The notes under the pieces: model-generated
Databases searched by the model: none
What the model was told of the DNA's origin: nothing
The model's input: the letters and a program-made list of their open reading frames with translations, nothing else
In this document: positions 15,177 to 36,495 of the stretch, in pieces
Position numbering within the stretch: position 1 is the first letter of the stretch
Layout: the number at the start of each line of letters is the position of its first letter
NCBI GenBank assembly: GCA_027475525.1
Contig: JAMWFC010000059.1
Span: 620,001 to 684,000, forward strand
Direction: 5' to 3'
From: Macrolepiota albuminosa
Taxonomy: Eukaryota > Basidiomycota > Agaricomycetes > Agaricales > Agaricaceae
DNA: 64,000 nucleotides
Position numbers and translations under genes: made by a program

Positions 15177-18021
15177 GCCATGGTACAGTATGGGACAAAT
15201 GTGAATGTCCAAACGCCGGGCTCACGTAGCCGGGAATACATGGATGTAGCGAACTTTGATCGCTACGATATGATACTGGGAACGCTATTCATGCGGCGTA
15301 ACAAAGTCATATTAGACTTCGACCATTGTCAGGTGCTAGTGAATGGGAAAGTTATCCCAGCCAAGCGAGCTACAGCAGACGACACTGATAATCGTCTGCG
15401 ACACCATCACACTACGGAGAAACGCAAGGACTCTCCATGACTTGGCCGGCGCAGAGTGCCGACCGTGGAGGATGGGGAGGAGGAAGTGCAGGCTATGCCT
15501 GGACTGAGCGCAGACCACAATGTGGTGATGATGAGCGAGGAGGAGTATCAAGCCTCCAAGAAGAGCAACGAGCAAATAATCGCTCCTGAGATTCGAGGCG
15601 CAAGGCCTCCAGACAAACGCCAACAAAAGGCGAGATGACAGGAGCACTCAGTGGATGTATGTCCACCGACGTCCTCACGAGTCAAGTTGGAAGACTTGAA
15701 AGACAGCATCCGAGAGGCGGAAGCCTCAGAAGAGGGGGACACACGGTCCCTATGGGAGCGACCAGCCCCCCTGCCGGAGTACGACTAGGCATACGACCCC
15801 CGAATGCCGCAAGAGTGGAACGAGCTGGTGGCAGCCATGTGTGCGCGAAATGCGCACCAGAGACGGATGACCGTCAAACCAGCGTATCGTCAGCCAGCCT
15901 CAGACGAGGTGTCCGTAGCGTACTCACTTGTACGTGAGGGAAGAAGCCTCGTGGCTTATAAGGCAGCGGCAGCGGGTTCTCCGCTGAGACTACATATACC
16001 CGATGACAGTGTCAATCGAGTGCTGTCCATGCGCGAGCAGTATGCACCGCCACCTCGGCCACTCTTAGAGACGGTGGAAGTACTTCCCCCTGTGCATATG
16101 AAGGGGAAGCAGAAGGCGACAAGCCTTCGTGGGGAAGATATTCCTCGGTTGCGTCAGCAATGGCAAGAAGAATTTGCCGACATGGTCAACGGGACCAAGG
16201 AAGAGCTGCTGCCATGGCGGGAGGTGAACCATGACATCAATCTCATAGACAAAAGCAAGCAGTATAAGTACCACTTGCCGTGCTGTCCGCACACCCTCCA
16301 GGAGCAACTACGCGATAAGACTAATCGCTATCTGAATGCTCAATGGTGGTCTCCATGCACCACCGCTCAAGCTGCACCATTATTATGCATCCTGAAGAAG
16401 GATGGAACCCTTCAAACAGCTCTTGATGCGTGTCAGCGCAATGACAACACCATAAAGGATGTAACTCCTTTACCAGATCAGGAGGTGATCTGGGAAGACG
16501 TGGCTCGGGCGAAGTATCGCTCGAAGATCGACCTTACTGACGCTTACGAGCAGGTGCGCATTCGCACCGAGGACGTACCCAAGACCGTTTTTGCATCGAT
16601 CATGGGCACGTTTACGAGCAATATAATGCAGATTGGAGACTGCAATGCTCCAGCAACTTTCCAGAGGCTAATGACCTCTATCTTCCGAGACGTAATAGGA
16701 CGTTTCATGCACGTCTACTTAGATGATATATTCATCTACTCGGATACTATGGAGGAGCATGAGCAGCACCTCAGAGTCGTATTCGAATGACTGCGCAAGT
16801 ACAAGTTGTACTTGAAGTGGAAGAAATGTGAGCTTTACGCTCAGAGTATAGACTGCCTAGGGCATGTCATTGATGAGCAGGGTATCCACCCCGATCAGGA
16901 CAAGCTCGATCACATTTGGGAGTGGCAAACGCCCCAAAACTACAATGACATCCAACGGTTTGTTGGTCTTGTCAACTATATTTCGAGCTTCTTGCCCGAT
17001 GTAACAGCTTATACTGGGCCACTTATGGCCATGACACAGAACGGGTCACCGTTCAGTTGGAGGCCGTTGCACCAGCGGTGCTTCGAGAGATCTGTACGAA
17101 GACTCCGGTGATTCGACCAATCGACTCTAGACAGGACGAGCCTATATGGCTCATTTGCGACACGTCCAAGACAGGCGTCGGGGCCATGTACGGCCAGGGA
17201 AGCAGCTGGCAGACGTGCCGCCCAGCCGGGTTCATGTCGAAAACGTTCACGACAGCCCAGCAAAACTATGTGGTGCATGAGTTGGAGACTCTTGCCATAC
17301 TCAAAGCCCTCCTTAAATGGGAGGATAAGCTGATGGGATATCCCATCCACATCATAACGGACCACAAGGCCCTTGAGTTCTTTAAAACTCAGGTGAACTT
17401 GTCGCCGCGTCAGCGACGGTGGATAGATTACATGTCGAGATACCAGTTCGACATCACCTATGTTAAAGGTGAACTCAACAAAGTGGCAGACTGCTTGTCG
17501 CGCTACTTTGAGAGTGATGTGGTTGGGGAGGCTCACGAGCCTCATGAGTATGTGCAGGCAGATTGCCGCATAGACCCTGATGGAGAGGATTTACCTCTTC
17601 ACTGATACCAGGAGCTCAGGGAGCATGTCCTGGAAGTACGCGCTATGCGTGATGAAGAACGAAGGCAAAGCACTCGCCTCAGAGAGCAGCGTGAAGAGCG
17701 GGACGTAGCCGCCCAGTTGCTCAAGGAGCATGAAGCTGTGGACCCAGAGTCCACTAGGGAGCACGAGCGCCACGATATACCCATAACGCTTGCAGAGATG
17801 CTCGAAGGCGAATTGCCTTCATCCCAGCCTCCTAGCCTGGTCACTGATGACTTCCGGCAGGAGGTGGTGCAGAACTATGGCGATGATTCTCTCTTTGCCG
17901 AGATAATCGCCAATCCTGACGACCATCCTCGGTTCAGGCATGCGCCTGGTGGACTCATTATGACGGAAAACCGTCAAGGGGTGGCAGTGGTATGCCTCCC
18001 CTGTACGCGAACCATTGTTAC
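15177..18021 (+). pseudogene. Protease end, reverse transcriptase and RNase H of outer chromovirus
   Basis: The same frame continues past TGA at 15,438 and 15,636, TAG at 15,786 and TGA at 16,788. The protease ends near MILGTLFMRRNKVI (15,270). The reverse transcriptase carries LRQ-type palm sequences and VYLDDIFIYSD (about 16,710-16,742), then CLGHVIDEQGI. A one-base frameshift near 17,090 moves the frame before RNase H (LICDTSKTGVGAMYGQG; HIITDHKALEFF). TGA at 17,603 precedes a charged connector. The frame is cut at 18,021 by the inner element and resumes at 26,648. Confidence 0.9.
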
Positions 18022-19081
18022 TGTAGTACTTGGTTGCAAGTAGTACTGATAGTTCTGGGGCTTTCTTGAAGTCTTAGAAAGTGACCTCTAATCCACACTG
18101 GTGCTTGATGATAAAAACTTGATGTATTGGATGCTTCACAGAATATCAAATATCCTGATGGGCAGAAGAAGGTTCTCAATAAACTCCAGCCTAAGCAGTT
18201 CACTCCCTGGGAACCACCGAGCCTTTGTCTACCAATAGACTTCCAATGAGAGGTGTTCAATAAACTCTAGCCTAAGTGATTCACTCCCTGGGAACCACCG
18301 AGCCTTTGCCTATCAATTGCCTGGTTATTCTCTACTCTACTTGGACTATTTATACTAATTTTCCAGTGCACAGACCACCAGATCACATGACTTTTTGCTC
18401 TTGACCTCCCAGCATTCCTGACCTAATTTGTTGTTCCATTTTCCATTTTGGTGATGCATGTTTCAGTGCCACCATTCCATTCATCTCTTCCTTCCTCCAT
18501 TCAATGCATGTTTCAGTGCCACCATTCCATTCATCTCTTCCTTCCTCCATTCAATGCATGTTTCAGTGCCACCATTCCATTCATCCCTCCCTTCCTCCAT
18601 TCAATGCATGTTTCAGTTCCACCATTCCATTCATCCCTCCCTTCCTCCATTCAATGCATGTTTCAGTGCCACCATTCCATTCATCCCTCCCTTCCTCCAT
18701 TCAATGCATGTGCCACCATTCTATTCATCTCTTTTGACATCCCTCCATGCTTCTTTCCCTTTCCCCTTTCAGTCATATCAAATTGGGGATTGTCAGATCA
18801 GATCTTGATCTAGATCATCACAATTTGATCCCCTTTTGTCACCTCTGCCAGCTCCCATGCTTCCCCTCCCCATAACAGTGGTTGGACTATTGTTGAGTTG
18901 ATAGCTTGAGCTGGTCCCTGCCCTTTGTTCTGTACTGTCTGTGTATTTATTGGGGTGTTTTTGGAGATATAATTTGTTGAGACTGCTACCAGGAGGCTTA
19001 CAGTTTTCAGCCCATAATTAAATGTTTATTTTGACTTCTGGTGCATGTTGTGTCCCTGACTGCTGGTACAGCATCGTATCA
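18022..19081 (-). repeat. 3' LTR of inner element (left)
   Basis: Direct repeat of 25,634-26,643. In element orientation it starts TGATACGATGC and ends CCAAGTACTACA. It holds five copies of a 50-bp unit (the other LTR holds four). One of the few single-base differences between the LTRs is a CG/TG transition (CACCGAG versus CACTGAG). Confidence 0.95.
18454..18703 (-). repeat. 50-bp minisatellite, five copies, inside the LTR
   Basis: The unit begins ATGCATGTTTCAGTGCC (plus strand) and repeats exactly every 50 bp. The first two copies carry TCTCTTCC, the later ones TCCCTCCC; copy four has one extra substitution. A truncated copy follows at 18,704. The other LTR has four copies at 26,066-26,265. 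The array is C/T-rich on the plus strand. Confidence 0.97.
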
Positions 19082-19094
19082 TCTCCCCCCCACC
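19082..19094 (-). other. Polypurine tract of inner element
   Basis: On the minus strand this reads GGTGGGGGGGAGA directly adjacent to the 3' LTR. This is the expected position of the primer for plus-strand DNA synthesis. Confidence 0.85.
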
Positions 19095-19287: not shown

Positions 19288-22200
19288 TTACTCCTCCCAG
19301 TCATCATGTAGATGCACACCCTGAAGGTACAGGTCCTCCTCCACCTGTCTCTCATTCTTTTCCTCCCTTAGTTCTTGTAGTTTAGATGGTGTAATGTCAA
19401 TCCATTCTTCAATACTAGTAGGCAGAGTGATTTGCTGCCTGGCCTTGTAAGGTATAACCCTAAAGGCAGCCACCCTCTCTTGCCACACAGTACCATCCAA
19501 CTCTGCCACTATGTAGTTCCCTCCTTTGGTCCTAGTCAACACCACCATAGGTCCCCAATAGCGAGCAGACATTTTCCCACTTAGAGATTTAGCTGCCACT
19601 ATGTTTCTAACCAGTACTAAGTCTCTTGGTTTGAACTTGTACTCCTTGATAGAGGCTTCATTTTCCCTTGTGAAGTTCTCTGCCCATCTCAACTTCTCCT
19701 TGCTGACTCTAGCCCTCATTTCCTCCACATGCTGGTAGTGCTTTGCCAGTGCTTGAGCCCTTAAGCCAATTAAGTCTTCTGTAGATACTGGTCCATCAGG
19801 CCAGTCTATCAACCAAGTGGCTTCCACTAAGTCCAAGGGTAGTATAGGATGTGCTCCAGTTACTAAGAAGAATGGGGAGCACCCAAATCTCTTTCTAACT
19901 GTAATCCTGTCTGCCCACATTACATGCCAAAAGAACCAGTACCACTTGGTTCTGTCTTCACAGGCTTTATACAAGGCCTGCCTCACATCCCAATGTGGTC
20001 TCTCTATCCTCCCATTAGCTCTAGAATTATAGGGAGCAATAGTTATGCCCTGTATCCCATACTTCTTAGATAGCCAATGTACCACTTTTGTGAACTGCCC
20101 AGCATTATCTGTTACAATAGTGCTTATACAGCCCCATCTACAGATCACTTCTTCAAACAACCACTGCCCAATCAACTTGTGGTTATCCTTCTTCAAAGGT
20201 CTACCCTCCATCCATGAGGTTAAAGCACACCTCCCATGTACAATATACTTGCACCCATTTGAACTTGGTGTCATATGCATGGTATCCAAGTGTATGGTTT
20301 CAAATATACTGGGAGTATAGGCTACCACAGGCTGCCTGCATACTGCAACTTTCTGCCTCACTTGGCAAGCATGACAAGTGTCTATATACCACTTTACATC
20401 AGCTTCCATCTCTGGCCACCAAAACCTCTCTTCCAGTAAAGCCTTAGTTGCAAAGGTCCCTCTGTGACCAAGTGCATCATGAGCAGACTTTAGCATATAC
20501 ATCCTCCTGTCCTTCTCTATGACTAGCTTGTGCTTTCCCTCTTCTCCTCTCTTGTAAAACCTTCCCTTGAGATCAAAGAAGAACTGTCTTGCAAATCTAA
20601 GGAATTGACCTTCTTTCACCTCTCTGGGCACCTTTCCAGGATGCCTAAGCCAGTCCTGTACTAGGGGTAAGAGGTTATCTAAGGCTTTCCCCTTCCCAGT
20701 TCTCCTCTCTTCTTGGTACTCTTCTACAGTAGAGGCAGAGGGCCTTTCTGGCAGCAAGAGTGTAGATAAAGTTAAGACTGCTACTGGATTCAGTGTAGTC
20801 CCTGCTTTAGTACTCTGCTCTTGTAAGCCTAAGGCTATCCCTTGCTCTCTGTCTCTACCCAACTCCACTTCCTCCTGTACATCCTCTGGAGTGACTGCTA
20901 ACAAGTAGCCTCCTCTTGTATCAATCTCATCCATGAAGTCCTCTAACTTGAGGGGCACATGTTCCTCCCAGCCAGGTACTTTGTTAATCTCATCTGGATA
21001 CTCAAAGGACATTGGCTTTGGATCATCCAGTAAAGATGAGTCCACAGGAGGATACTCTTCATCTCCTGGTTGCTTCTCCCTGCGAGATAGACCATCCATA
21101 CTGAAAGTCTTTCCTGGCACATGCCTCAAGGTGAAGTGATACATAAGTACAGCTTCTACCCAGCGCATTATAGTAGCATTAGGTCCTATTCCTGGGTTGC
21201 TCAGCATGCCCTTGAGGTATTTAGCATCACTCTCAATGATAAGCTTTCTGCACCCTAGTAACCAATAGCTGCTAACTTGTAATGCCCTCATAAGACCATA
21301 CAGCTCTCTCTTAGGTTGTGAAAACCTAGCCTCCCTCTCATTCAAGGTAATGGACCCCAGTCTAGCACAAGTCCTCTGTTTTGGATTTGTACTGTCTTCT
21401 TGGAAGATCCCAAACCCAACAGCCATCCAAGAAGTGTCTACTGCCAAGATGACAGCTCCTTCAGACTCATAGTCTATAGGTCTTAGAGCTGCACAACTTG
21501 CTAACCTCCTCTTCATCTCCTTCATGGCCTCCTTCTGTTCTTCCTCCCAGACAAAAGCCACATCATCCTTAGTGAGCCTATTGATAGGCTCTGAGATCTT
21601 GGCATAGTCCTGGATGAACATCCTGAAGGTACCACAAGTTCCCAAGAACTTCCTAACCTCAGAGACATTGCGGCAGTCTCCCCAACTCATGACCACTGCA
21701 TATCTCTTTGTCTCTGGCTTGCGCCCCTCATAAGAACACAAGTGACCCACTACAGTGATTTCATCTGCACATAGCACAGACTTAGTCCCTGAGAAGGTTC
21801 CTCCAGCATACTTGATGCGCTGAACAACTCTATTGACATTGTTCAGGTGCTCCCATACAAAGCGCCTAATCCCTTGATTCTCTGCAATAGTCTCATACCC
21901 TCCTCCTTCCAACTCATACCTAGTCTCAGGTCCTCTTATTGGAACATCATCAATATAAGGCCAAGTGACATGAGGTATCTCATCCTGCAAGATATAAGTA
22001 ACATCATCATGGAAGATGGGAACTGAATTAGTCCATCCCATTGGCAATGTCACCAATCTCAGAGCTCCATAAGGTGTCTGAAAGGTGGTATAGTCTCTAG
22101 ACTTAGGGTCCAAAGTCCTTTCATCATATCCAACATAGAGGTCACACATCCCACCACATGCTCTTCCAGCAAAGTGGTTGGCCAGTTCTTCTGTAGCAGG

Positions 22201-23022
22201 AGGTACTCCAGAATGAGCTATAGTGACTTTGTTTAGGGGTTCTAAACTGTGCACAAGCCTTAGACTTTTCCCATCCTTCTTCAGAACAGCAAACCATTGT
22301 GATCTATATGAGGAGTTTGACCTCTCATAAACCCCTGCTTCCAACTTCCTCTTAATCTCCTTGCACAGGTCATTGTACTTCCCAGGAGGTATGGGTCTGT
22401 TTTTCAACACCCAAGGCTGGTGAGGTACTACTGGCATAACAACAGGTGGGAAGTATTCCTCTTTGAACTTCCCCTTCTGACTGTCATTCCATGCAAAGGC
22501 CTCATTCTGCTGCATCATCAGCTGGTGCAGCAACTTCCTCTCTTCTGGCCATAGAAACTCTCCTTCATGTGCTTGGTCAATAATCTGCTTGCACTCCTCT
22601 GTGTACCTCCCAGTAGGTCTGAATTCAGGTGGATGTGGACTCAAAGGTGGCATATCCTTTAAAGGATCACCAGTGATATTCCTCTCTATCCTGAACTCCT
22701 CTGGTGTAGTACCCAACACAGGTCTAACTTTCTTGGCAACAGGCTTATATTTCCCAAACACTTGTACAGTTTCCTCCTGGCTTTTCTCCCCCCCACTCTT
22801 TAACTCTTCAGGTAGGTAGCCTAGCTCTCCATTCAGGTAAGCTCCCAGCAACTGCCCTGTCCTTTCTCCTTCTCTTCCAGTAGCATGGTAAGCAGCCAAG
22901 TACACATCCCTGAGTTCTTGCTGCTCAAAACTCTTCTCCTTGACACAGTACCCCTTGATCCAGAAACCTTCCTCCTCACTCCCCTCTATCATTACTGCAG
23001 CCTCTCCTTGATCTGGGATCAA
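19288..23022 (-). CDS. Pol (reverse transcriptase-RNase H-integrase) of inner element
   Basis: A continuous frame of about 1,244 codons from 23,022; it has no ATG at its 5' end and opens further upstream in the -1 frame of the protease ORF. Approximate residues, counted from 23,022: RT fingers 220-260 (FAVLKKDGKSLRLVHSLEP); catalytic YIDD 356-359; RNase H AVDTSW 527 and IIESDAKYL 595; integrase HHCC (H848, H853, C883, C886) and catalytic Asp913 (HLDTMHM), Asp972 (VTDNAGQF) and Glu1007 (NGRIE). All catalytic residues are present. No chromodomain follows; the C-terminus is a short basic/acidic tail. Lack of a start codon, together with the GGGAAAA heptamer just upstream, suggests expression by -1 frameshifting. 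Confidence 0.95.
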   Translation of the reverse strand: MIPDQGEAAVMIEGSEEEGFWIKGYCVKEKSFEQQELRDVYLAAYHATGREGERTGQLLGAYLNGELGYLPEELKSGGEKSQEETVQVFGKYKPVAKKVRPVLGTTPEEFRIERNITGDPLKDMPPLSPHPPEFRPTGRYTEECKQIIDQAHEGEFLWPEERKLLHQLMMQQNEAFAWNDSQKGKFKEEYFPPVVMPVVPHQPWVLKNRPIPPGKYNDLCKEIKRKLEAGVYERSNSSYRSQWFAVLKKDGKSLRLVHSLEPLNKVTIAHSGVPPATEELANHFAGRACGGMCDLYVGYDERTLDPKSRDYTTFQTPYGALRLVTLPMGWTNSVPIFHDDVTYILQDEIPHVTWPYIDDVPIRGPETRYELEGGGYETIAENQGIRRFVWEHLNNVNRVVQRIKYAGGTFSGTKSVLCADEITVVGHLCSYEGRKPETKRYAVVMSWGDCRNVSEVRKFLGTCGTFRMFIQDYAKISEPINRLTKDDVAFVWEEEQKEAMKEMKRRLASCAALRPIDYESEGAVILAVDTSWMAVGFGIFQEDSTNPKQRTCARLGSITLNEREARFSQPKRELYGLMRALQVSSYWLLGCRKLIIESDAKYLKGMLSNPGIGPNATIMRWVEAVLMYHFTLRHVPGKTFSMDGLSRREKQPGDEEYPPVDSSLLDDPKPMSFEYPDEINKVPGWEEHVPLKLEDFMDEIDTRGGYLLAVTPEDVQEEVELGRDREQGIALGLQEQSTKAGTTLNPVAVLTLSTLLLPERPSASTVEEYQEERRTGKGKALDNLLPLVQDWLRHPGKVPREVKEGQFLRFARQFFFDLKGRFYKRGEEGKHKLVIEKDRRMYMLKSAHDALGHRGTFATKALLEERFWWPEMEADVKWYIDTCHACQVRQKVAVCRQPVVAYTPSIFETIHLDTMHMTPSSNGCKYIVHGRCALTSWMEGRPLKKDNHKLIGQWLFEEVICRWGCISTIVTDNAGQFTKVVHWLSKKYGIQGITIAPYNSRANGRIERPHWDVRQALYKACEDRTKWYWFFWHVMWADRITVRKRFGCSPFFLVTGAHPILPLDLVEATWLIDWPDGPVSTEDLIGLRAQALAKHYQHVEEMRARVSKEKLRWAENFTRENEASIKEYKFKPRDLVLVRNIVAAKSLSGKMSARYWGPMVVLTRTKGGNYIVAELDGTVWQERVAAFRVIPYKARQQITLPTSIEEWIDITPSKLQELREEKNERQVEEDLYLQGVHLHDDWEE

Positions 23023-23046
23023 CTCCTCAAGGCTGAAGCTTTTCCC
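22998..23046 (-). promoter_or_regulatory. Predicted -1 frameshift signal, protease-to-pol
   Basis: On the minus strand the heptamer G GGA AAA (23,046-23,040) is in phase with the protease frame (X XXY YYZ). It lies about 18 nt before that frame's TGA (23,021-23,019). Slipping back one base gives GGG AAA AGC, exactly the pol frame. After a 4-nt spacer, CAGCCT (23,035-23,030) can pair with AGGCTG (23,003-22,998). It encloses a perfect hairpin TTGATC-loop-GATCAA (23,022-23,008). Heptamer, phase and stem are seen in sequence; frameshifting itself is inference. Confidence 0.7.
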
Positions 23047-24023
23047 AACTCCTCCTTGTTGCCACTAGGGGGTGCCTTGCCTCTCTCATAAGTTGGCAGT
23101 GCAGTCCTCTTCCCAGTATTAGGATCCCTGATAGTGATGATTGCACTACCATCCTTCAAGTTCTGCACATTACTCTCAGTGGCTGTATCAAATGGCCTCC
23201 CCAGTAATACTGTATAGGCAGGTTTCTCAAATATATGCACTTGCAAGTATATTGTGAAACCCTCAGCAAACTTGAAGGGCACATTCTTGGCCATCCCCAA
23301 AGACTCATTGACTTGTTGATTGGCACTCTCCATGCGCAACCTTATGTCAGGATCCCAAGTCAATCTCAAACTTAGTGCCTTGTCCAAAGCCATGCACACA
23401 ATCTGAGACCCACTATCCAATATAGCCTCTACCTTTTCTTGGTCATTCACACTAGGGTACAGAGACCTCAACACTTGTAAGTCTCTGGCCACATAGACCA
23501 CTTCTGGCCTATCCCCTGGTGGAAGCTGTTCCAAGAAGGTAGCCACACAGTCCTCATGAACCACTGATCCCTTTGGAATCCCCTCTTCTTCACTCTGAGA
23601 GATATGGTACCCTGGTTGAGGCAAGTCATCTATGTTGACCTGGCCCATTACAGAAGCACTTCTATCCTCTTGTGCAAAGACCTTGGCTGCTGTCCACTTG
23701 GTAGCACCTTCTCTCCTTCTCCAAGTCTTCTCCATAGCCTCCTGCAAGGCTGGCACCTTCAACAATTCCCTTGTAGAAATTGTCACCTCATTGTCCAATA
23801 TTTTGCTGACAATCTCATCCTCCCTTCTCTGCCATACTCTGGGCTGGTACAGCTCTTTCTTGTCATTTTGAAATTTTACTATTTTCTCTCCATTGACAGC
23901 AGGCACCTGCTCAAAGGGCAGGTTCCCTTTGCCTACTTCTATAACTCCCCTTTGCCTTTTCAGATCACTCTCAGGTGGTAGTGGTGTCCTCAATTCAGGC
24001 TGGACCCTTCCATCTGCCACCAT
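23019..24023 (-). CDS. Protease ORF of inner element
   Basis: 334 codons from the ATG at 24,023 if initiated there, but the frame is open upstream to at least the slippery site at 24,044 and is -1 relative to gag. The retropepsin active site is ILDSGSQIVC (about residues 201-210) and the second conserved strand TVLLGRPF lies near residue 283. The first 200 residues are a charged linker. The stop overlaps the pol frame by four bases. A stand-alone protease frame between gag and pol is unusual for Ty3/gypsy, where gag-pol is generally one or two frames. Confidence 0.9.
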   Translation of the reverse strand: MVADGRVQPELRTPLPPESDLKRQRGVIEVGKGNLPFEQVPAVNGEKIVKFQNDKKELYQPRVWQRREDEIVSKILDNEVTISTRELLKVPALQEAMEKTWRRREGATKWTAAKVFAQEDRSASVMGQVNIDDLPQPGYHISQSEEEGIPKGSVVHEDCVATFLEQLPPGDRPEVVYVARDLQVLRSLYPSVNDQEKVEAILDSGSQIVCMALDKALSLRLTWDPDIRLRMESANQQVNESLGMAKNVPFKFAEGFTIYLQVHIFEKPAYTVLLGRPFDTATESNVQNLKDGSAIITIRDPNTGKRTALPTYERGKAPPSGNKEELGKASALRS

Positions 24024-24044
24024 CCTTGAGTTCTCTAAAAACCC
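24023..24044 (-). promoter_or_regulatory. Predicted -1 frameshift signal, gag-to-protease
   Basis: Minus strand: heptamer G GGT TTT (24,044-24,038) is in phase with gag and directly followed by the gag stop TAG (24,037-24,035). A one-base backward slip gives GGG TTT TTA GAG, which is the protease frame. Downstream, GGTGG (near 24,020) could pair with CCACC (near 23,970), but this stem is weaker than at the second site. Initiation at the ATG at 24,023, 12 nt beyond the gag stop, is an alternative. Confidence 0.65.
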
Positions 24045-25309
24045 TCCTGCTTCTGCTGCTGAGTGTTCTTCTCATAAGTCTGACTCCTAGTAGTTATCAG
24101 ACTTGCCACCAAGCTCTGCAGTTCTTCTATCTTCTTCTCCAAATCCCCCCTCTCTTTGGGCACTGCCTGCACATAAGTAGCCACACTAGGCACAACTGTT
24201 ACTGGTTCCTCTACCCACCCATAGAAGGCAGCAGCCTTAGAGTCCATGATAGCATTGACCCTCTCCTTGGGAGACACATTAGGTGGACTCCTGGGAATAG
24301 GATCCCCAGAAGGTAGCCTAGGCCTGCCTTCAACAAGAATAAGCTTGCCTTCTTGGACTTGAGTCCTGAGGTATTCACAGTCAATGGTCCTATGTCCCAG
24401 CTCCCAACAATGATAACAGTTTATTCCTGCTGCTGAACTGTTGCCTCCTTGAAACTGAACAGTCTGCAAGGCCTGAGCAGGCATCCCCATCCTATTCTGC
24501 AGACCTCCCTGCATAGGAACCTGGCTCTTTGCCTTCCACTCATTGTTCATGGTCTGCATGAACCCCCTCAGACTGCTCATCTCCTTCCCCAGAGCCATGA
24601 CTCCATCCTGGAGGTTAGCTAACCTCCCCTCAGTCTCCAAATCTGGCTCTTGCTTGACCTTGATCACCCCTGGGACCTTCTCCTGTGGACTGTCATTGTC
24701 CCTGAATGAGGTTCCAGAATCAACCAAAATAGCCACCACATTGATGATTTCCTTCAGATCATATCTATCATCCTTGTGTCTCCTCCTGGTTATGTCACTA
24801 TAATGACCATATTTTTGCAAGGCCTGAGCCAGAATAAGTTCCCTGAAGGCTGGGGTGAAGCACTTAGTGAACTTCTCAACCAGTGCCCCATTCCCAAGCA
24901 CCCCCTTCAACTTCTTGGCTTCAGCCCTAAACTTCCTGACCAGTGCATGGATCTCTTCTGTGTCATTCTGTCCCAACCTTGCATGCTCTCTACAGATCCT
25001 GTCAAGTACTGCCACACTCCCCTCATCAGAGATTGCCTCTGGGTAGGAATCTTGGACCTCCTTGACAAAGACCTCCCAACTTGACTCATCACTAAAACTG
25101 TCCAATCCCCTCCACTCACTGTCTGTCTCTGCATCCACATACTCTGTCACCCTCTCCTTCCTCTCCTCAGCATCATTAATCCCTGCAGCCTTGAAGAGAC
25201 TCTCCATCTTTCTGAGGAAGCGCCTGACTTCAGTGGGCTGTGTGTGGGTGAACCTAGGTGCATCTCTGCTTGTAGACAGAGGCAATTTTTGTCTTGTAAC
25301 TTCTGGCAT
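24035..25309 (-). CDS. Gag of inner element
   Basis: The frame is open from 25,474, but the first in-frame ATG is at 25,309, giving about 424 residues. The upstream open part has a GTG and no ATG. It encodes a helical Gag core (VRRFLRKMESLFKAAG ... ELILAQALQKYG) and, about 70 residues before the end, a CCHC knuckle CYHCWELGHRTIDC. The C-terminus is a coiled coil rich in Gln/Lys. The frame ends in GGT TTT TAG, which forms a slippery site. The host stretch around it is CpG-poor. Confidence 0.9.
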   Translation of the reverse strand: MPEVTRQKLPLSTSRDAPRFTHTQPTEVRRFLRKMESLFKAAGINDAEERKERVTEYVDAETDSEWRGLDSFSDESSWEVFVKEVQDSYPEAISDEGSVAVLDRICREHARLGQNDTEEIHALVRKFRAEAKKLKGVLGNGALVEKFTKCFTPAFRELILAQALQKYGHYSDITRRRHKDDRYDLKEIINVVAILVDSGTSFRDNDSPQEKVPGVIKVKQEPDLETEGRLANLQDGVMALGKEMSSLRGFMQTMNNEWKAKSQVPMQGGLQNRMGMPAQALQTVQFQGGNSSAAGINCYHCWELGHRTIDCEYLRTQVQEGKLILVEGRPRLPSGDPIPRSPPNVSPKERVNAIMDSKAAAFYGWVEEPVTVVPSVATYVQAVPKERGDLEKKIEELQSLVASLITTRSQTYEKNTQQQKQEGF

Positions 25310-25614
25310 ATTTGATAGATTTGTACTTGTAATTTTGATAGTTTTGGATGTTGGCTTTCTGCTTGATCTCAAGACTTGTTCAGGGTCCCCAACACTATTG
25401 AGTGTGGTGGTCTTGCTGCTCCTGGTAGTGGGCTTGTGTGCTTGCTCCCTAGGACTGACCTTTTGCTTGGGCACTGTCCTCTTTAGCTTCTCTGGGGTAG
25501 ACCCTCTTGGTGCAAATGAAATCTTGAATTAAGCTTGAGGTGAACCTGACTTGCTGGTCCACAAATGAACTTGATGACAGTGTTTCTTGTTGGTAAACTT
25601 TCTAAGCCAAAGCC

Positions 25615-25631
25615 CCTCGCGGTGGGCTCCA
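25615..25631 (-). other. Primer-binding site of inner element
   Basis: Two bases inside the 5' LTR the minus strand reads TGGAGCCCACCGCGAGG. It starts with TGG, as expected for a sequence complementary to a tRNA 3' end (CCA). It is one of the few CpG-containing stretches of the element, consistent with constraint by tRNA pairing. The tRNA is not identified. Confidence 0.7.
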
Positions 25632-25633
25632 GA

Positions 25634-26643
25634 TGTAGTACTTGGTTGCAAGTAGTACTGATAGTTCTGGGGCTTTCTTGAAGTCTTAGAAAGTGACCTC
25701 TAATCCACACTGGTGCTTGATGATAAAAACTTGATGTATTGGATGCTTCACAGAATATCAAATATCCTGATGGGCAGAAGAAGGTTCTCAATAAACTCCA
25801 GCCTAAGCAGTTCACTCCCTGGGAACCACTGAGCCTTTGTCTACCAATAGACTTCCAATGAGAGGTGTTCAATAAACTCTAGCCTAAGTGATTCACTCCC
25901 TGGGAACCACCGAGCCTTTGCCTATCAATTGCCTGGTTATTCTCTACTCTACTTGGACTATTTATACTAATTTTCCAGTGCACAGACCACCAGATCACAT
26001 GACTTTTTGCTCTTGACCTCCCAGCATTCCTGACCTAATTTGTTGTTCCATTTTCCATTTTGGTGATGCATGTTTCAGTGCCACCATTCCATTCATCTCT
26101 TCCTTCCTCCATTCAATGCATGTTTCAGTGCCACCATTCCATTCATCTCTTCCTTCCTCCATTCAATGCATGTTTCAGTGCCACCATTCCATTCATCCCT
26201 CCCTTCCTCCATTCAATGCATGTTTCAGTGCCACCATTCCATTCATCCCTCCCTTCCTCCATTCAATGCATGTGCCACCATTCTATTCATCTCTTTTGAC
26301 ATCCCTCCATGCTTCTTTCCCTTTCCCCTTTCAGTCATATCAAATTGGGGATTGTCAGATCAGATCTTGATCTAGATCATCACAATTTGATCCCCTTTTG
26401 TCACCTCTGCCAGCTCCCATGCTTCCCCTCCCCATAACAGTGCTTGGACTATTGTTGAGTTGATAGCTTGAGCTGGTCCCTGCCCTTTGTTCTGTACTGT
26501 CTGTGTATTTATTGGGGTGTTTTTGGAGATATAATTTGTTGAGACTGCTACCAGGAGGCTTACAGTTTTCAGCCCATAATTAAATGTTTATTTTGACTTC
26601 TGGTGCATGTTGTGTCCCTGACTGCTGGTACAGCATCGTATCA
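25634..26643 (-). repeat. 5' LTR of inner element (right)
   Basis: A 1,010-bp LTR identical in structure to the left one, but with four instead of five 50-bp units (26,066-26,265). It is followed by the second TTAC target copy and then by the resumed host reading frame. Confidence 0.95.
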
Positions 26644-26647
26644 TTAC

Positions 26648-27955
26648 GCGGGTCTTGGACCAGGCCCATGCCCTGGTGGGGCACTTTGGTGCCGCCCAGA
26701 CGTTGGGCTACATCCGGAGATGGTATTGGTGGCCACGCATGGCCCAAGAAGTAACTAAGTTTTGCGCGTCATGCGCAGCGTGTCAGAGGGCAAAGTTGCC
26801 CCCTGGATCCCCTCCCGGGAAGCTACACCAGCTACCCGTGCCGGTGAAACCCTGGGATTCAATCGGAATGGACTTCATAGGTCCCTTTCCCGAGTCCAGA
26901 GGGTTCAATTATCTCTGGGTAGTCATATGCCACATGACGAGCATGGTGCACCTCATACCGGTGCGAACTACACTGATGGCTAAGGAGCTGTCTTGGATCT
27001 ACCTGAGGGAGATTGTTAGGCTGCATGGGCTGCCTAGCACCATTGTGAGCGACCATGACTCAAAGTTCACATCTCAATGGTGGAGAGAACTCCACAAACT
27101 GCTAGGAGCTCGATTCCTCATGTCGACATCCTTCCATCCTCAAACAGATGGGCAGACAGAGCGGGCTAACCGCAGTATAGGTCAAATTCTGAGGGCAGTT
27201 GTTCGCCCTGACCAACAGGACTGGGTGGACTGGTGTCCACTCACTGAGTTCGCGATTAATGCGAGTATCTCGGATACCACAGGGTATGCGCCCTTTGAAC
27301 TCAACGGAGGGTACTTGCCCTCCATGCTGCATGAGGTTCGTGCTGATACGGTGGCTCACCGCGGAGTTGTCGAGTTCGGCAGGCCCTGGAGAACATCGCG
27401 GCGGCGCATGACGCCATCATAGAGGCGCAAGTCTTCCAGGCGAAAAACACCAATCACCGTAGGTGAAAAGAACCGCCGATAGCTGTAGGAGCATTGGTAT
27501 ACCTATCAACGCGTAATCTGAGGCTCCCAAAGGGAAGAGCGAGTAAACTCTGCCCGAAATGGGTAGGCCCATACCGCATTCTGGATGCGGAGCCAAGTAC
27601 CTCCAACTACGTGTTGGAGCTGCCTCTGGCATTACAGAAATGACGCATCGTTCCTAAGTTTCATGTGTCGCTGTTGCGACCTTACAGCGCGTCTGACGAT
27701 GCGCTGTTCCCTAACAGGGCAACCCCGGGCCCCTATGATTTTGGGGCTCGGGACAATGACGAATGGTTCGTCGAGTGCATAATTGGGCACCGGTGGACTG
27801 AGCGTAACACGCTCGAGTTTGAAGTACGTTGGTCCCTGGGGGACACAACATGGGAGCCGCACTCCCATTGCTCCAAGTTGGCGGCACTTGACCGTTATTT
27901 GAAGTTGAAGGGCGTTAAGCGCCCACATCAATTGAGTAAGCGTGCCGGCGCTTAA
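26648..27955 (+). pseudogene. Integrase and chromodomain of outer chromovirus
   Basis: Continues the Pol frame cut at 18,021. It holds the HHCC zinc domain (H-L-V-G-H ... CASCAACQRAK) and catalytic Asp in GMDFIGPF, Asp in IVSDHDSKFTS and Glu in DGQTERANR: all three retained. A one-base frameshift lies near 27,370. TGA stops at 27,464 and 27,641 sit where Arg is expected. The GPF/GPY-like end is followed by a chromodomain at about 27,755-27,920 (EWFVECIIGHRW...FEVRWSL..TTWEPHSHC), which places the element among chromoviruses. Confidence 0.9.
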
Positions 27956-31672: not shown

Positions 31673-34654
31673 TCAAACAAGACCGTCCACTGCAATACCT
31701 GCATTAATCCTCGATATCGATGGAAAATCAAAACCACCTAGCTCTAGCGGAAGGGTTAGTAACTTTGATGATGGACAGAAAGGAAAACCCAAGATCTCGT
31801 GAACCCTATGAGTCAGCCTTTGATCTAGTCTCTGTGCGTCAGTGTGTAGAATGGGTTGTAAAGACAGTAAGGCTCTGCATCGGGAGATCAAGTTCTGTGA
31901 AATGATCTTGCGAATGAGAGTGAATGGTATCCTCATGGTGAAGGTAGGAAAAATAAAGCTATTGATGAGACTCATCAACTACGAGAACCAGGACTTTGGG
32001 TCGTGAACCTGCATTCGGAGGAAGCTAAATTCATCCTTCGAAACTGGTACTGCATGCTCTGAGATGATCCAAGGATTGACTCCGGGCTCCTTAGTAATTG
32101 AGGGGAAGGATAATGTAGGCGGCAACGGATCTGCGGTGTTCAAGATGTGCGCGGTGGTTTTTTCCCATGAAGTCAACCAGCCATACGTGAACTGAAAGCG
32201 TTTCATTTCCAATGTGAACCTTCTAAGGGCAGAATGAGATAAGGCTATCAGATAGCTATCGTCAGTAGCCTCCGTCATGGACAGATTAAGTGAGTAGGTA
32301 TCATTCGGGAGATACGGGTCGTCGATGGATTTGGACATACTTTGAATCACAATAGCATCTGGGTCATGGGCAGAGATATCATCCAAATATCTATGTCCCA
32401 GGCTAGTAGTGATGGTAGCCTTGAAGGGAGAGATTGGGCCACCTTGCTTAGTTACCCCGTCCACAATAATTGGCGATGCTATGCCCCACGCGGTTCTCAG
32501 AAAGCATTTGACCTGAGATTGCGATGCACAATCAAGGTCGCATATTGAGGAAGGCAGACCGTATGCTTGGCATGCGTCGTAAAAACCGTGAGGCGACAAG
32601 TAATCAAATCCTTTCATTTGATCGCGCTTAAGAAGGTAAACGAACTTTTTGTGTCTTCGACTCCAAGTCTTGAGACTACAGAGGAAGCTCATCAAATCCC
32701 GAGTCTGCACACCAGGCTGCGTGGCCACTTGAGTTTCAGGAATAATCCCCATTCTTGCAGCGTATGGAGAAAGTCTGTAATTCAACCAAGTCATGGGAGA
32801 GTTAGCGAGGAAATTGGAGATAGTCAGTCCTCTCCAATTTGAGAGGTTCGTTCGAATCCCTCGTTTGTGAAAATACGTCAGATGTGCCTCCTTAACCTTT
32901 CCAGGAAAGTGGGCATGCAGTACGGAGTAGTTATGCAGATCTAAGACTAATTGTAAGGCTCTGTCCGATAAATTCTTTACGCACCATTTTTCCCAGCCAT
33001 CTGGGCCCGGTGATGGGCGTGGATTGCCTCTCCTTAACATAGCGTGGAAGTCGGCTAAGGTCGCTGTGACAGGCCAAACGAAAGGACTCTTCTCAACCTG
33101 TTGTCTTACTTGCAAAACTGACGGCGTTGTCAACCACGGTTTGGGCTTGTCTGGAGGTGGGGAGCGTTTGTAAAGGTTAACAAAGTATTCACAAGTTAAT
33201 TCCGCAACCTCGCTAGGATCTGTAACAAGAGCATCAGGGTCGCGTGAAGAAACAAGAGCAGTAGGTAATGAAACGAAGGCTGACGATCCACCCAAAAGTT
33301 TTTTGGAGGAACCGCCTGATAAAACCCCCTGGATTCTTCCATAATCACGACGTTTAGCGCGATCCCATATTTCGGACTTCTTAGCCGCATGTAGCTTGCT
33401 ATACAGTCCTTTCCAAACGTGTATCATATATTTCATAAGATCACGGTCCGATTGACGCGCTTGGGATTCAAACCTTGGAGGTGGCGCCGGGGTGAAGAGA
33501 CCAGACGGGCGTGGAAGACCAGTGTGACCTGACTGAGTGCTAGAAGGGGACCATACCATCGTCGCGACAATTGCCCTATGATCGGTACCAGGGATCCAGG
33601 TTTGATCTGTGTGAATCTCATGGTCAGCAAGAGTTTCAGATGAACAAACAACCCTATCAATAATATTGCCGCCCTCATTGGAGTTCCAAGAGCGACTTGT
33701 CCAATGAATAAATCTGTTACGATCCGGTGATGCCTGCCACAAATCGATGCTGTGAGTTGAGTTCCTGGCTATGACATTGTCTGATGCCCATTTGACTTGG
33801 GACACCGTTGCATTGAGGTCACCAAACAATGACCACGAGGACTTTGTCCGACAGACTAACTCAGTTAATTGAGGCCAGAAATTCCTTGAGAGATCATCAA
33901 GCCCAGGATCACAGGGTGCATATACAGCAAAGACACGGTGCGCGAACAAAAATGAGTTATGACAGGGAACTACCATGTCAACAGCCACAACTCGACCTCT
34001 AAAAGAGGGGTGGGTGAGCGTGACTCGAGAAATAATTTGGACATCCCTTTGAATGCCTAAAATCACACCCCATTTTCCCCGATGTGCGGAACAAGAAACT
34101 CTGTTTTCTTCTACGATCTCGTAATCAGAGATTGAAAGATTAGCCCCCGTGTTAGACCTCGACTTTGTTTCCGAGATCGCAAAAAAATGGGGAGCTAGCT
34201 TCCCAATCAACGGACCAATTAAGGCGAGTTTGACTGGGCTTACAAGTCCGTTTGCATTCAGTGCAAATACTGATACTTGGGCTTGTGGATTTGTTGGCAT
34301 AGCTGCCACACACGGAAACAAAAGAGACAGCAGGAACCAATAAACTGTTATATGAAGAACAAGGAAAAACAATGGCCAACACAAACGATAAGAGCGATGT
34401 GCATTGAGTATGCAGTCCTTGAGACTGTTTGACTGTATATAAGTCGGAGTTGAATCCGTGTATGTAGTTGATCTGTATATAGTGGTTGAGCACAAGCCAG
34501 ACTTGACGTCCTTAAGACCGTACACATATTTCGAGGTAAAGATATAAGAACTGGTGCGTAACATAAGGGAAAGCAAGTGTTTATGATGATTGAATGAGAA
34601 GCTGGGTGCCCGTATTGCCGGCAAGCCCAGACCAATTAGACTACCCCTCCACAT
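31673..34654 (-). pseudogene. LINE ORF2: endonuclease and reverse transcriptase
   Basis: An open frame of 891 codons from 34,654, ended by TAG at 31,979-31,981. The same frame then continues to a TGA at 31,673 and onward across the insertion, so the TAG is premature. The likely start is the Met near residue 119 (MPTNPQAQVSVF). The APE-type endonuclease shows LNANGL, ISETK, FGDLNA and GTDHRAI (catalytic Asn, Glu, Asp/Asn, Asp-His). The reverse transcriptase shows PGPDGWEKW, KGFDYLSPH and TKQGGPISP. The catalytic pair is ATDDSYLIAL near residue 798, with Ala-Thr in place of the usual Tyr/Phe-Ala. The first 118 residues overlap the end of ORF1 and are hydrophobic, probably not translated. Confidence 0.85.
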
Positions 34655-36495
34655 AACCCAGCGAGAGCCGAATTTGACCCTTGAGGTTGAGGCTCCAGAT
34701 GATTGAGGGCTTGTTTCATTGGACGGAGTCTGAGAGAATGGGCACCCGCATTAACGGAATCATACGGTATACTCAACACACAAGCGGAACATACCAAGTT
34801 CGCAGTAGGGTGCAAGACGGGAGACTCAGGCACAGTTTTGACCGCAGGTAGGTCCTCCATTGTCCTTCTCTTCTTGCAAAGCCTCGTGGCTGGCACCGAC
34901 GGAGAATTTTTCGGCATGCGTTTCAATGGTTGTTGTTCGACAGCGGGAGCATCACCCAACTGTGGTGCAGGTAGCAAATTACCAGGAGGTCCATTCCCAA
35001 TGACACTGGCAAACTGTTCGGAAGTAGTGGAGAGCTCGGCTCTCTTCGAATCTAGCTCAGTAATCAGCAGGTCAAGAGCAGATTGAATTTCGTCCCTTCT
35101 CTGTTGACTGGCCGGGAACAATAGGGACACCCAAAGGCTGCCAATTTGGGACTCCAATTCCACCACACGAGACCAAATCTTTTCTTCATGTCCTTGCACA
35201 AGAAGAGCCTGTTGTGTAATACAGATTCTCTGGTCGAGCGACAGGACTTGATCCATCAGTTTTAATTGTGCCGAGGACATGTCGTCTTGCTTGAGCTGAA
35301 CCGATCGGACCTCATTTCTCAATTTGCGAATCTCTGCAGCCATTGACCTTATAGTACTCATAATCTGATCCGCTCCTCTCATGCCCTGATCACCCAGAGT
35401 CCTGCGGGTAGGGTTTTTGTTATAATCCCAAAGCTGACGCGGTGCAGAGATCGAATCTGGGAAGATCTTCCTAAAAGACTCTTCAGCCCGTAACACCTTG
35501 AGAGTGTCCGCCCATGTGGACATAGAAAAAATAAACAAATCTGTGTTTAAGTCAGTGGACCGACTCCCAATCCACGAACCAGGTGCGATTTTCCTAGCCC
35601 ATTTTTCAATCTGGCCTTTCATCTGTTCCCAGTCACGCATTCCAGAGACGACCAGCTTGAATGGACGCTCGAGAGGGATCTCCTTCAACGGTTCGACACG
35701 TGCGAGATGTCTGGACACTTTTGCAGGCACCGCAAACAACCCTAAAGCCATGAATCGGTCAGCATCAGACGGCAAGAGAAACGTGACCTGCAGGCCACCA
35801 AAGGAGGCGAAGATTGAGGCCACTTTATAGCCCTGCTTCTCGATGTGATCTTTGATCAGCGGTAGGTCAGCCTGGGGTATATCACTACAATCCCTAACAC
35901 CCGGATAAAGGTCTAAGAGGCAACAAGAAAGACGCTTGTCACTGCGTCCTTTCCTACTGGCGCTCCATCCAACCTCCCACTCGGGTCTAGCTTCATTGAT
36001 CGCTCGCATGATGATCTCCAACAGATCTACCCTGGGTTCGGAGCAGCTATCATCCTTAACCTGCACCTCAATATAACAGGCCGAGGAGAGGTTTGTAGGT
36101 CAATCACTGAATGGGGTGACATGAGGCTGCAATTTCTTGAAGTATTCGAACTATGGATCCAAGCTGAGCTTGTCGATTACGTCCTTTACCATGGAGGCGG
36201 GCGTCTCGGAGGGGTCACTAGGTATGCAACCGCGCACGATAAGTTGGCAACCCTTCGGGATCTGAGCCGGTGAGAAAACCATCTCATCGTCAGAACCTAA
36301 ATCACCCTCTGGGGTAGGTGGACGGACACCAGTTCTGGGTGTTCTAGGGGTAAATGGGGGAATTTTCAGTTCGGTGGCCACGGTGGGTGTGGTAGGTAAT
36401 GAGTAAACTATGGGATCAACTTCTATCGGGGTAGGAGAAGAATCTAAAGACTGTAGTAAGGGGGGAGGTAGGTTTTGAGTTGAAGGCAACATCAA
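34636..36495 (-). pseudogene. LINE ORF1 (RNA-binding protein)
   Basis: A frame of about 620 codons from the ATG at 36,495, with a premature TAG (36,151-36,153) and TGA (36,100-36,102), after which 476 codons are open. The N-terminus is Pro/Thr-rich (PPFTPRTPRTGVRPPTP). A central region of beta/alpha character (GYKVASIFASFGGLQVTFLL ... RPFKLVVSGM) resembles the RRM-like folds of fungal ORF1 proteins. It is followed by a long coiled coil (RSMAAEIRKLRNEVRSVQL) and a basic tail with KKRRTM. There is no CCHC knuckle. Binding of LINE RNA is the family role. Confidence 0.7.

Follow-up and report, generated by a model that had tools for sequence, protein, structure and literature searches.

How a fungal LTR retrotransposon could express gag, protease and pol from three different reading frames is the question raised by a locus in a 64,000-nucleotide stretch of Macrolepiota albuminosa DNA (contig JAMWFC010000059.1, positions 620,001 to 684,000; hereafter the window, to which all coordinates refer). 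Two shifts that divide gag, pro and pol are familiar chiefly from some animal retroviruses. The original prediction, made from the letters of the window, was that an intact Ty3/gypsy element carries a double -1 design of this kind, and it is supported by the conservation of the element's copies, by the identical layout of a sister family, and by a predicted RNA stem. In the open-licence literature, of which our coverage was incomplete, we found no fungal Ty3/gypsy element described as having two shifts across gag-pro-pol. The features of the element are as follows:

18018-18021, no strand: left copy of the target-site duplication TTAC
18022-19081, minus strand: 3' LTR with TG...CA ends
19082-19094, minus strand: polypurine tract, adjoining the 3' LTR
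19288-23064, minus strand: pol frame, -1 to protease, with RT, RNase H and integrase
22998-23035, minus strand: predicted two-layer stem after the pro/pol slip site, starting 4 nt past the heptamer
23019-24071, minus strand: protease frame, -1 to gag, with Asp_protease_2 above cut-off
23040-23046, minus strand: candidate slip heptamer 2, GGGAAAA, in phase
24035-25528, minus strand: gag frame from stop to stop, first ATG at 25309, with a weak CCHC knuckle below cut-off
24038-24044, minus strand: candidate slip heptamer 1, GGGTTTT, with TAG directly after it
25613-25631, minus strand: PBS-like stretch TGGAGCCCACCGCGAGGGG, lying 2 nt internal to the 5' LTR, named on the basis of its position and TGG start only
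25634-26643, minus strand: 5' LTR with TG...CA ends, matching 18022-19081
26644-26647, no strand: right copy of the target-site duplication TTAC

Comparison of pol with solved structures recovered the domain order RT, RNase H, integrase, with Ty3 Gag-Pol as the best match (residues 237-676) and a separate integrase match (818-1053). Pfam searches detected the RNase H and integrase zinc domains, but no Pfam RT family and, with E up to 5, no chromodomain at the integrase end of the kind that marks chromoviruses. The domain order, the affinity to Ty3, the LTRs, the target duplication, the PBS-like stretch and the polypurine tract are together those of a Ty3/gypsy (Metaviridae-type) element. Between the two LTRs there are 3 substitutions and 50 gap positions, the latter reflecting tandem-repeat copy number. 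As part of the overall explanation that we favor, we consider it very probable that this Ty3/gypsy-type LTR retrotransposon inserted recently in an agaric-like fungus. The LTRs differ mainly in an internal 50-nt tandem repeat (18454-18711 and 26066-26273), which is present in 5.2 versus 4.2 copies. As a separate observation, 73 open codons precede the first ATG of the gag frame (25309-25528), which would allow a start at a non-ATG codon or a conserved leader.

The ORF coordinates place gag (25528..24035), protease (24071..23019) and pol (23064..19288) in three minus-strand frames, each displaced by -1 from the preceding one, with overlaps of 37 nt between gag and protease and of 46 nt between protease and pol. 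Gag ends in GAG GGT TTT TAG, so that GGGTTTT (24044..24038) abuts the stop codon. At the second junction GGGAAAA (23046..23040) is read in phase as TTG GGA AAA, exactly 18 nt before the TGA at 23021..23019; the first in-frame ATG of pol lies 18 codons 3' of the slip site. The successive frames, the phase and position of both heptamers and the missing 5' ATG of pol are thus all as originally described, with the distance to the protease stop, then given as approximate, now exact. Defining a canonical heptamer as an in-phase X XXY YYZ in which Y is A or T and Z is not G, we found one in the 497 codons of gag (the GGGTTTT at the stop), two in protease and none in pol. The remaining protease heptamer, GGGTTTC, lies 80 codons from the protease end; hence the two overlap regions hold two of the only three canonical in-phase heptamers across the three ORFs, and both junctions have the heptamer expected of a -1 cassette. 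Resampling of codons within each ORF (20,000 trials each) placed a heptamer in the overlap by chance in 1.1% of trials for gag and 2.2% for protease, giving a joint chance of about 2 in 10,000 if the two are independent.

Our favored reading, based on sequence and held with high confidence, is that elements of a fungal Ty3/gypsy clade produce Gag, Gag-Pro and Gag-Pro-Pol through two -1 slips. One RNA would yield three nested products: 1) most ribosomes would terminate after Gag; 2) a fraction would slip by -1 on G GGU UUU at the gag stop, to give Gag-Protease; 3) a fraction of the latter would slip by -1 again on G GGA AAA, aided by the downstream stem, to give Gag-Protease-Pol. We infer the slipping of ribosomes, its rates, and selection on the ratio of Gag to Gag-Pro to Gag-Pro-Pol.

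A search of the same genome (100.1 Mb in 129 contigs) returned at least 119 protease matches. Comparison of the genomic copies, a check put forward with the original prediction, showed both heptamers and the stem to be conserved in the element's own family, termed A: both heptamers are present in all 30 family-A loci fetched. A census by pattern search, which allowed up to 3 mismatches and misses copies with indels, gave 52 rows for the first site, one of which, with 3 mismatches, was dropped as a chance match (a backward control pattern had 4 matches); GGGTTTT is kept in 49 of the remaining 51 places, with GGATTTT in one and GAGTTTT in another. At the second site GGGAAAA is kept in 46 of 48 rows and replaced by GAGAAAA in two, against a single match of the backward control. 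Even A copies whose gag has diverged vary little at the end of gag and the beginning of protease, and heptamer conservation within A is therefore weak evidence when taken alone, being in part an effect of recency. The protease frame is unbroken in 29 of the 30 loci, the exception, L015, having an in-frame stop; L027 and L030 have altered protease ends, and the gag and pol frames of several copies are cut short. All three ORFs are under purifying selection, with dN/dS mostly well below 1. The comparisons covered gag and pol up to about 1.5 kb from protease. In seven chosen within-A pairs the values were 0.08-0.15 for gag and 0.09-0.20 for protease; those for pol were 0.00-0.12 in five of the pairs, and 0.41 and 0.43 in two pairs involving L029 (97 codons). 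Two pairs within the sister family, B, gave 0.01-0.23 across gag, protease and pol. Since dS is saturated between A and B, no ratio is given for that comparison.

Family B (loci L031-L070) is about 60% identical to A in protease and has the same -1/-1 arrangement of frames. Its gag/pro junction reads GGATTTT followed directly by TGA in 37 of the 39 loci read as B; the fortieth, L062, which also covers a copy of A, was scored as A. GGATTTT is a known variant slip heptamer. The pro/pol overlap of B is only 13 nt long, AGCAAAATTTTGA, and its site, AAAATTTT, is non-canonical, lying outside X XXY YYZ. This junction, A4T4 followed by a stop, occurs in 38 of the 40 loci, many of them near identical, with TAA as the stop in 4. 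Its codons are GCA AAA TTT stop, and neither GCA-AAA nor AAA-TTT allows both tRNAs to re-pair in the -1 frame. The AAAA aligns with that of the GGGAAAA of A when the stems are in register, and our guess is that a lysine tRNA slips on AAAA.

The two-layer stem proposed after the pro/pol site is the minimum-energy fold of the 60-nt (-18.1) and 120-nt windows of A starting at TTGGGAAAA, and independently of the 60-nt window of B (-13.7). At 90 nt, in both A and B, the best structure is instead a different fold around the same inner hairpin, or lacks the two-layer form. The predicted stem is kept in B with compensatory changes. Twelve pairs are in register between the families: 3 are changed on both sides (C-G to T-A, T-A to C-G and A-T to G-C), 3 on one side with pairing kept, and 6 are identical, while one of the 13 core pairs of A is lost in B. 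Among 20,000 synonymous codon shuffles each, 98 for A, 96 for B and 85 for a B subfamily matched or exceeded the actual count of core pairs. Of the 22 pol blocks, the one at the junction has the lowest codon-shuffle energy z in both A and B, the single z values being modest (about -1.9 and about -2.5 to -2.6). At the gag/pro junction no local downstream structure beyond chance was found in two copies of A and three of B at four window lengths (z from +1.33 to -1.74), and the signals seen there are the heptamer and the adjacent stop only.

Of the alternatives to frameshifting, the one that fares best is termination followed by re-initiation at nearby internal ATGs, which would produce Protease and Pol as separate starts. 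Suitable codons do exist in family A, where all 30 loci have an in-frame ATG 7 codons past the gag/pro slip and 18 codons past the pro/pol slip, and even a start 80 codons into protease or 34 into pol would spare the enzyme domains. However, in 12 of the 39 B loci read, 80 codons of protease pass without an in-frame ATG, as do 34 codons of pol in 33 of the 39; moreover, re-initiation leaves the in-phase heptamers and the stem unaccounted for. We therefore regard it as unlikely. Still less probable is an intron joining the frames, a spliced fusion having been an outcome that would count against the original prediction: scans of six copies for GT...AG candidates of 40-150 nt, filtered for a fair donor, a branch-like motif and a pyrimidine-AG, found none that joins the frames at either junction. 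Decay of a dead element through indels or assembly errors, which the broken copies of family A (the protease stop of L015, the shortened gag and pol frames) might bring to mind, is contradicted by the copy comparison and can practically be dismissed, as the same two breaks recur in 30 of 30 A loci and a matching arrangement in B, with low dN/dS and near-identical LTRs.

Two further families in the same genome bear on how widely the double slip reading applies. Of the five family-C loci fetched, three have gag and protease in a common frame and two are interrupted; three of the five retain an intact -1 overlap between protease and pol. Family D appears to have the same fused arrangement, judging from the length of its open frame (at least 869 aa in 24 of 36 rows); in all 14 junction stretches fetched its protease ends in RR-stop with pol open in the -1 frame. 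Both families have G TGT TTT C as a non-canonical candidate shift site, after which the predicted folds vary by copy and window. As for whether relatives read gag, protease and pol in one frame, the answer is thus mixed: C and apparently D fuse gag with protease, but the -1 step into pol is kept. All four families examined (A-D) have this step and only A and B have the gag/pro split, for which reason the split may be the younger trait.

Outside this genome, the nearest protein relatives are from Termitomyces, Tephrocybe, Arthromyces and Tricholoma, names by which the genome is agaric-like. We considered the 120 listed of 881 protease relatives, a list restricted to proteins 0.55-1.75 times as long as the query, so that stand-alone proteases are favored. 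A phenylalanine occurs in the last 10 residues of 111 of these 120 (as DF in 83 and GF in 9), and stands 5-6 residues from the C-terminus in 86. This terminal phenylalanine lies at about the slip codon of A and, as far as proteins can tell, would fit GAU-UUU or GGU-UUU. Protease resides in the same protein as pol in 3 of the 120 pol relatives listed (of 1275), namely P0156, P0189 and P0205, which points to some elements lacking the second break. Among the 120 listed of 357 relatives of the C gag-pro piece, 73 have the protease motif, preceded in 51 by more than 450 residues, and so the fused gag-pro layout is also widespread. The public relatives thus appear to include both layouts. One scan each of viral_contigs and genome_contigs with an alignment of 28 protease proteins yielded no related DNA loci; hence, statements on other species rest on proteins. 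The single gag-pro frame of C and D and the 3 of 120 pol relatives with fused protease together limit the double shift to a part of the clade.

A broader scenario, to which we give roughly an even chance, is that two layouts of retroviruses, gag-pro | pol and gag | pro | pol, were independently reached within this agaric Ty3/gypsy clade. The pro/pol shift would then keep a fixed, old position, with the slip sequence exchanged freely: A has GGGAAAA, B AAAATTTT, C and D GTGTTTT, and the public relatives probably GAU- or GGU-UUU, with a conserved stem common to at least A and B. Under this scenario family B would shift at a non-canonical -1 site directly adjoining a stop codon. The former layout is that of avian leukosis and Rous sarcoma-type viruses. 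Families C and, by its frame length, D resemble these in that a single frame covers gag and protease, with pol reached by a -1 step; they differ in being fungal and in their non-canonical candidate site.

The latter layout is that of MMTV and HTLV, where, according to passages of PMC5009743, pro occupies its own frame, -1 from gag, with a second -1 event at its end, and the joint output of the two events is about 2-5%. Those are animal retroviruses, whereas the fungal element has a Ty3-like pol and a predicted two-layer stem at pro/pol, with none found at gag/pro. Like beta- and deltaretroviruses it has pro in its own frame with a -1 step on both sides, a likeness of layout only. A retroviral RT affinity and an env gene are not seen: the best match is Ty3, and only about 200 nt separate the end of pol (19288) from the 3' LTR (19081). 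The element would thus work like a retrovirus without being classed as one. Among fungal LTR elements, LTR-Gypsy-RtPc1 of Paracoccidioides also has pol in the -1 frame relative to gag (PMC4427930); however, elements of this type, as the consulted sections present them, have a single shift with protease inside the pol frame. Single -1 layouts are described in parts of PMC4427930 and PMC2582038, and a 2003 survey of LTR elements, as summarized in PMC5009743, found the pol frame at -1 relative to gag in 28 of 51 animal elements and, among fungi, frames of +1 as well as of -1. The same source, in the sections consulted, ranks G_GGU_UUU among the shiftiest heptamers on mammalian ribosomes, and describes G_GAU_UUU with a stop 3 nt on in pea enation mosaic virus, the heptamer found at the gag stop of B (PMC5009743). 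Plant RNA viruses with such shift sites are unrelated to the fungal element, and some use long-distance pairing. In barley yellow dwarf virus, GGGUUUU likewise lies beside a stop.

The presence of a fungal double -1 layout beside single-shift families in one genome would make the order in which the shifts arose readable from sequence. The junctions of A and B would represent shift sites for fungal ribosomes, one of them non-canonical, which can be tested by simple reporters. The double-shift layout would also explain why elements of this kind turn up in databases as separate hypothetical proteins.

Some minor observations concern the element's history and surroundings. Family A gag falls into two lineages separated by a dS of about 0.7-0.9 (L001 versus L012, L026 and L028), while protease and pol are far closer; the jump in divergence lies about 540-600 nt before the first slip site, and looks like recombination between elements. 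The minus-strand element itself looks as if it had inserted into another gypsy-type element: integrase-like ORF fragments of the apparent host, read by eye, adjoin the insertion at 26622-27955. Farther on, at 31673-34750 on the minus strand, long frames have motifs that, by eye, resemble a LINE (non-LTR) endonuclease and reverse transcriptase.
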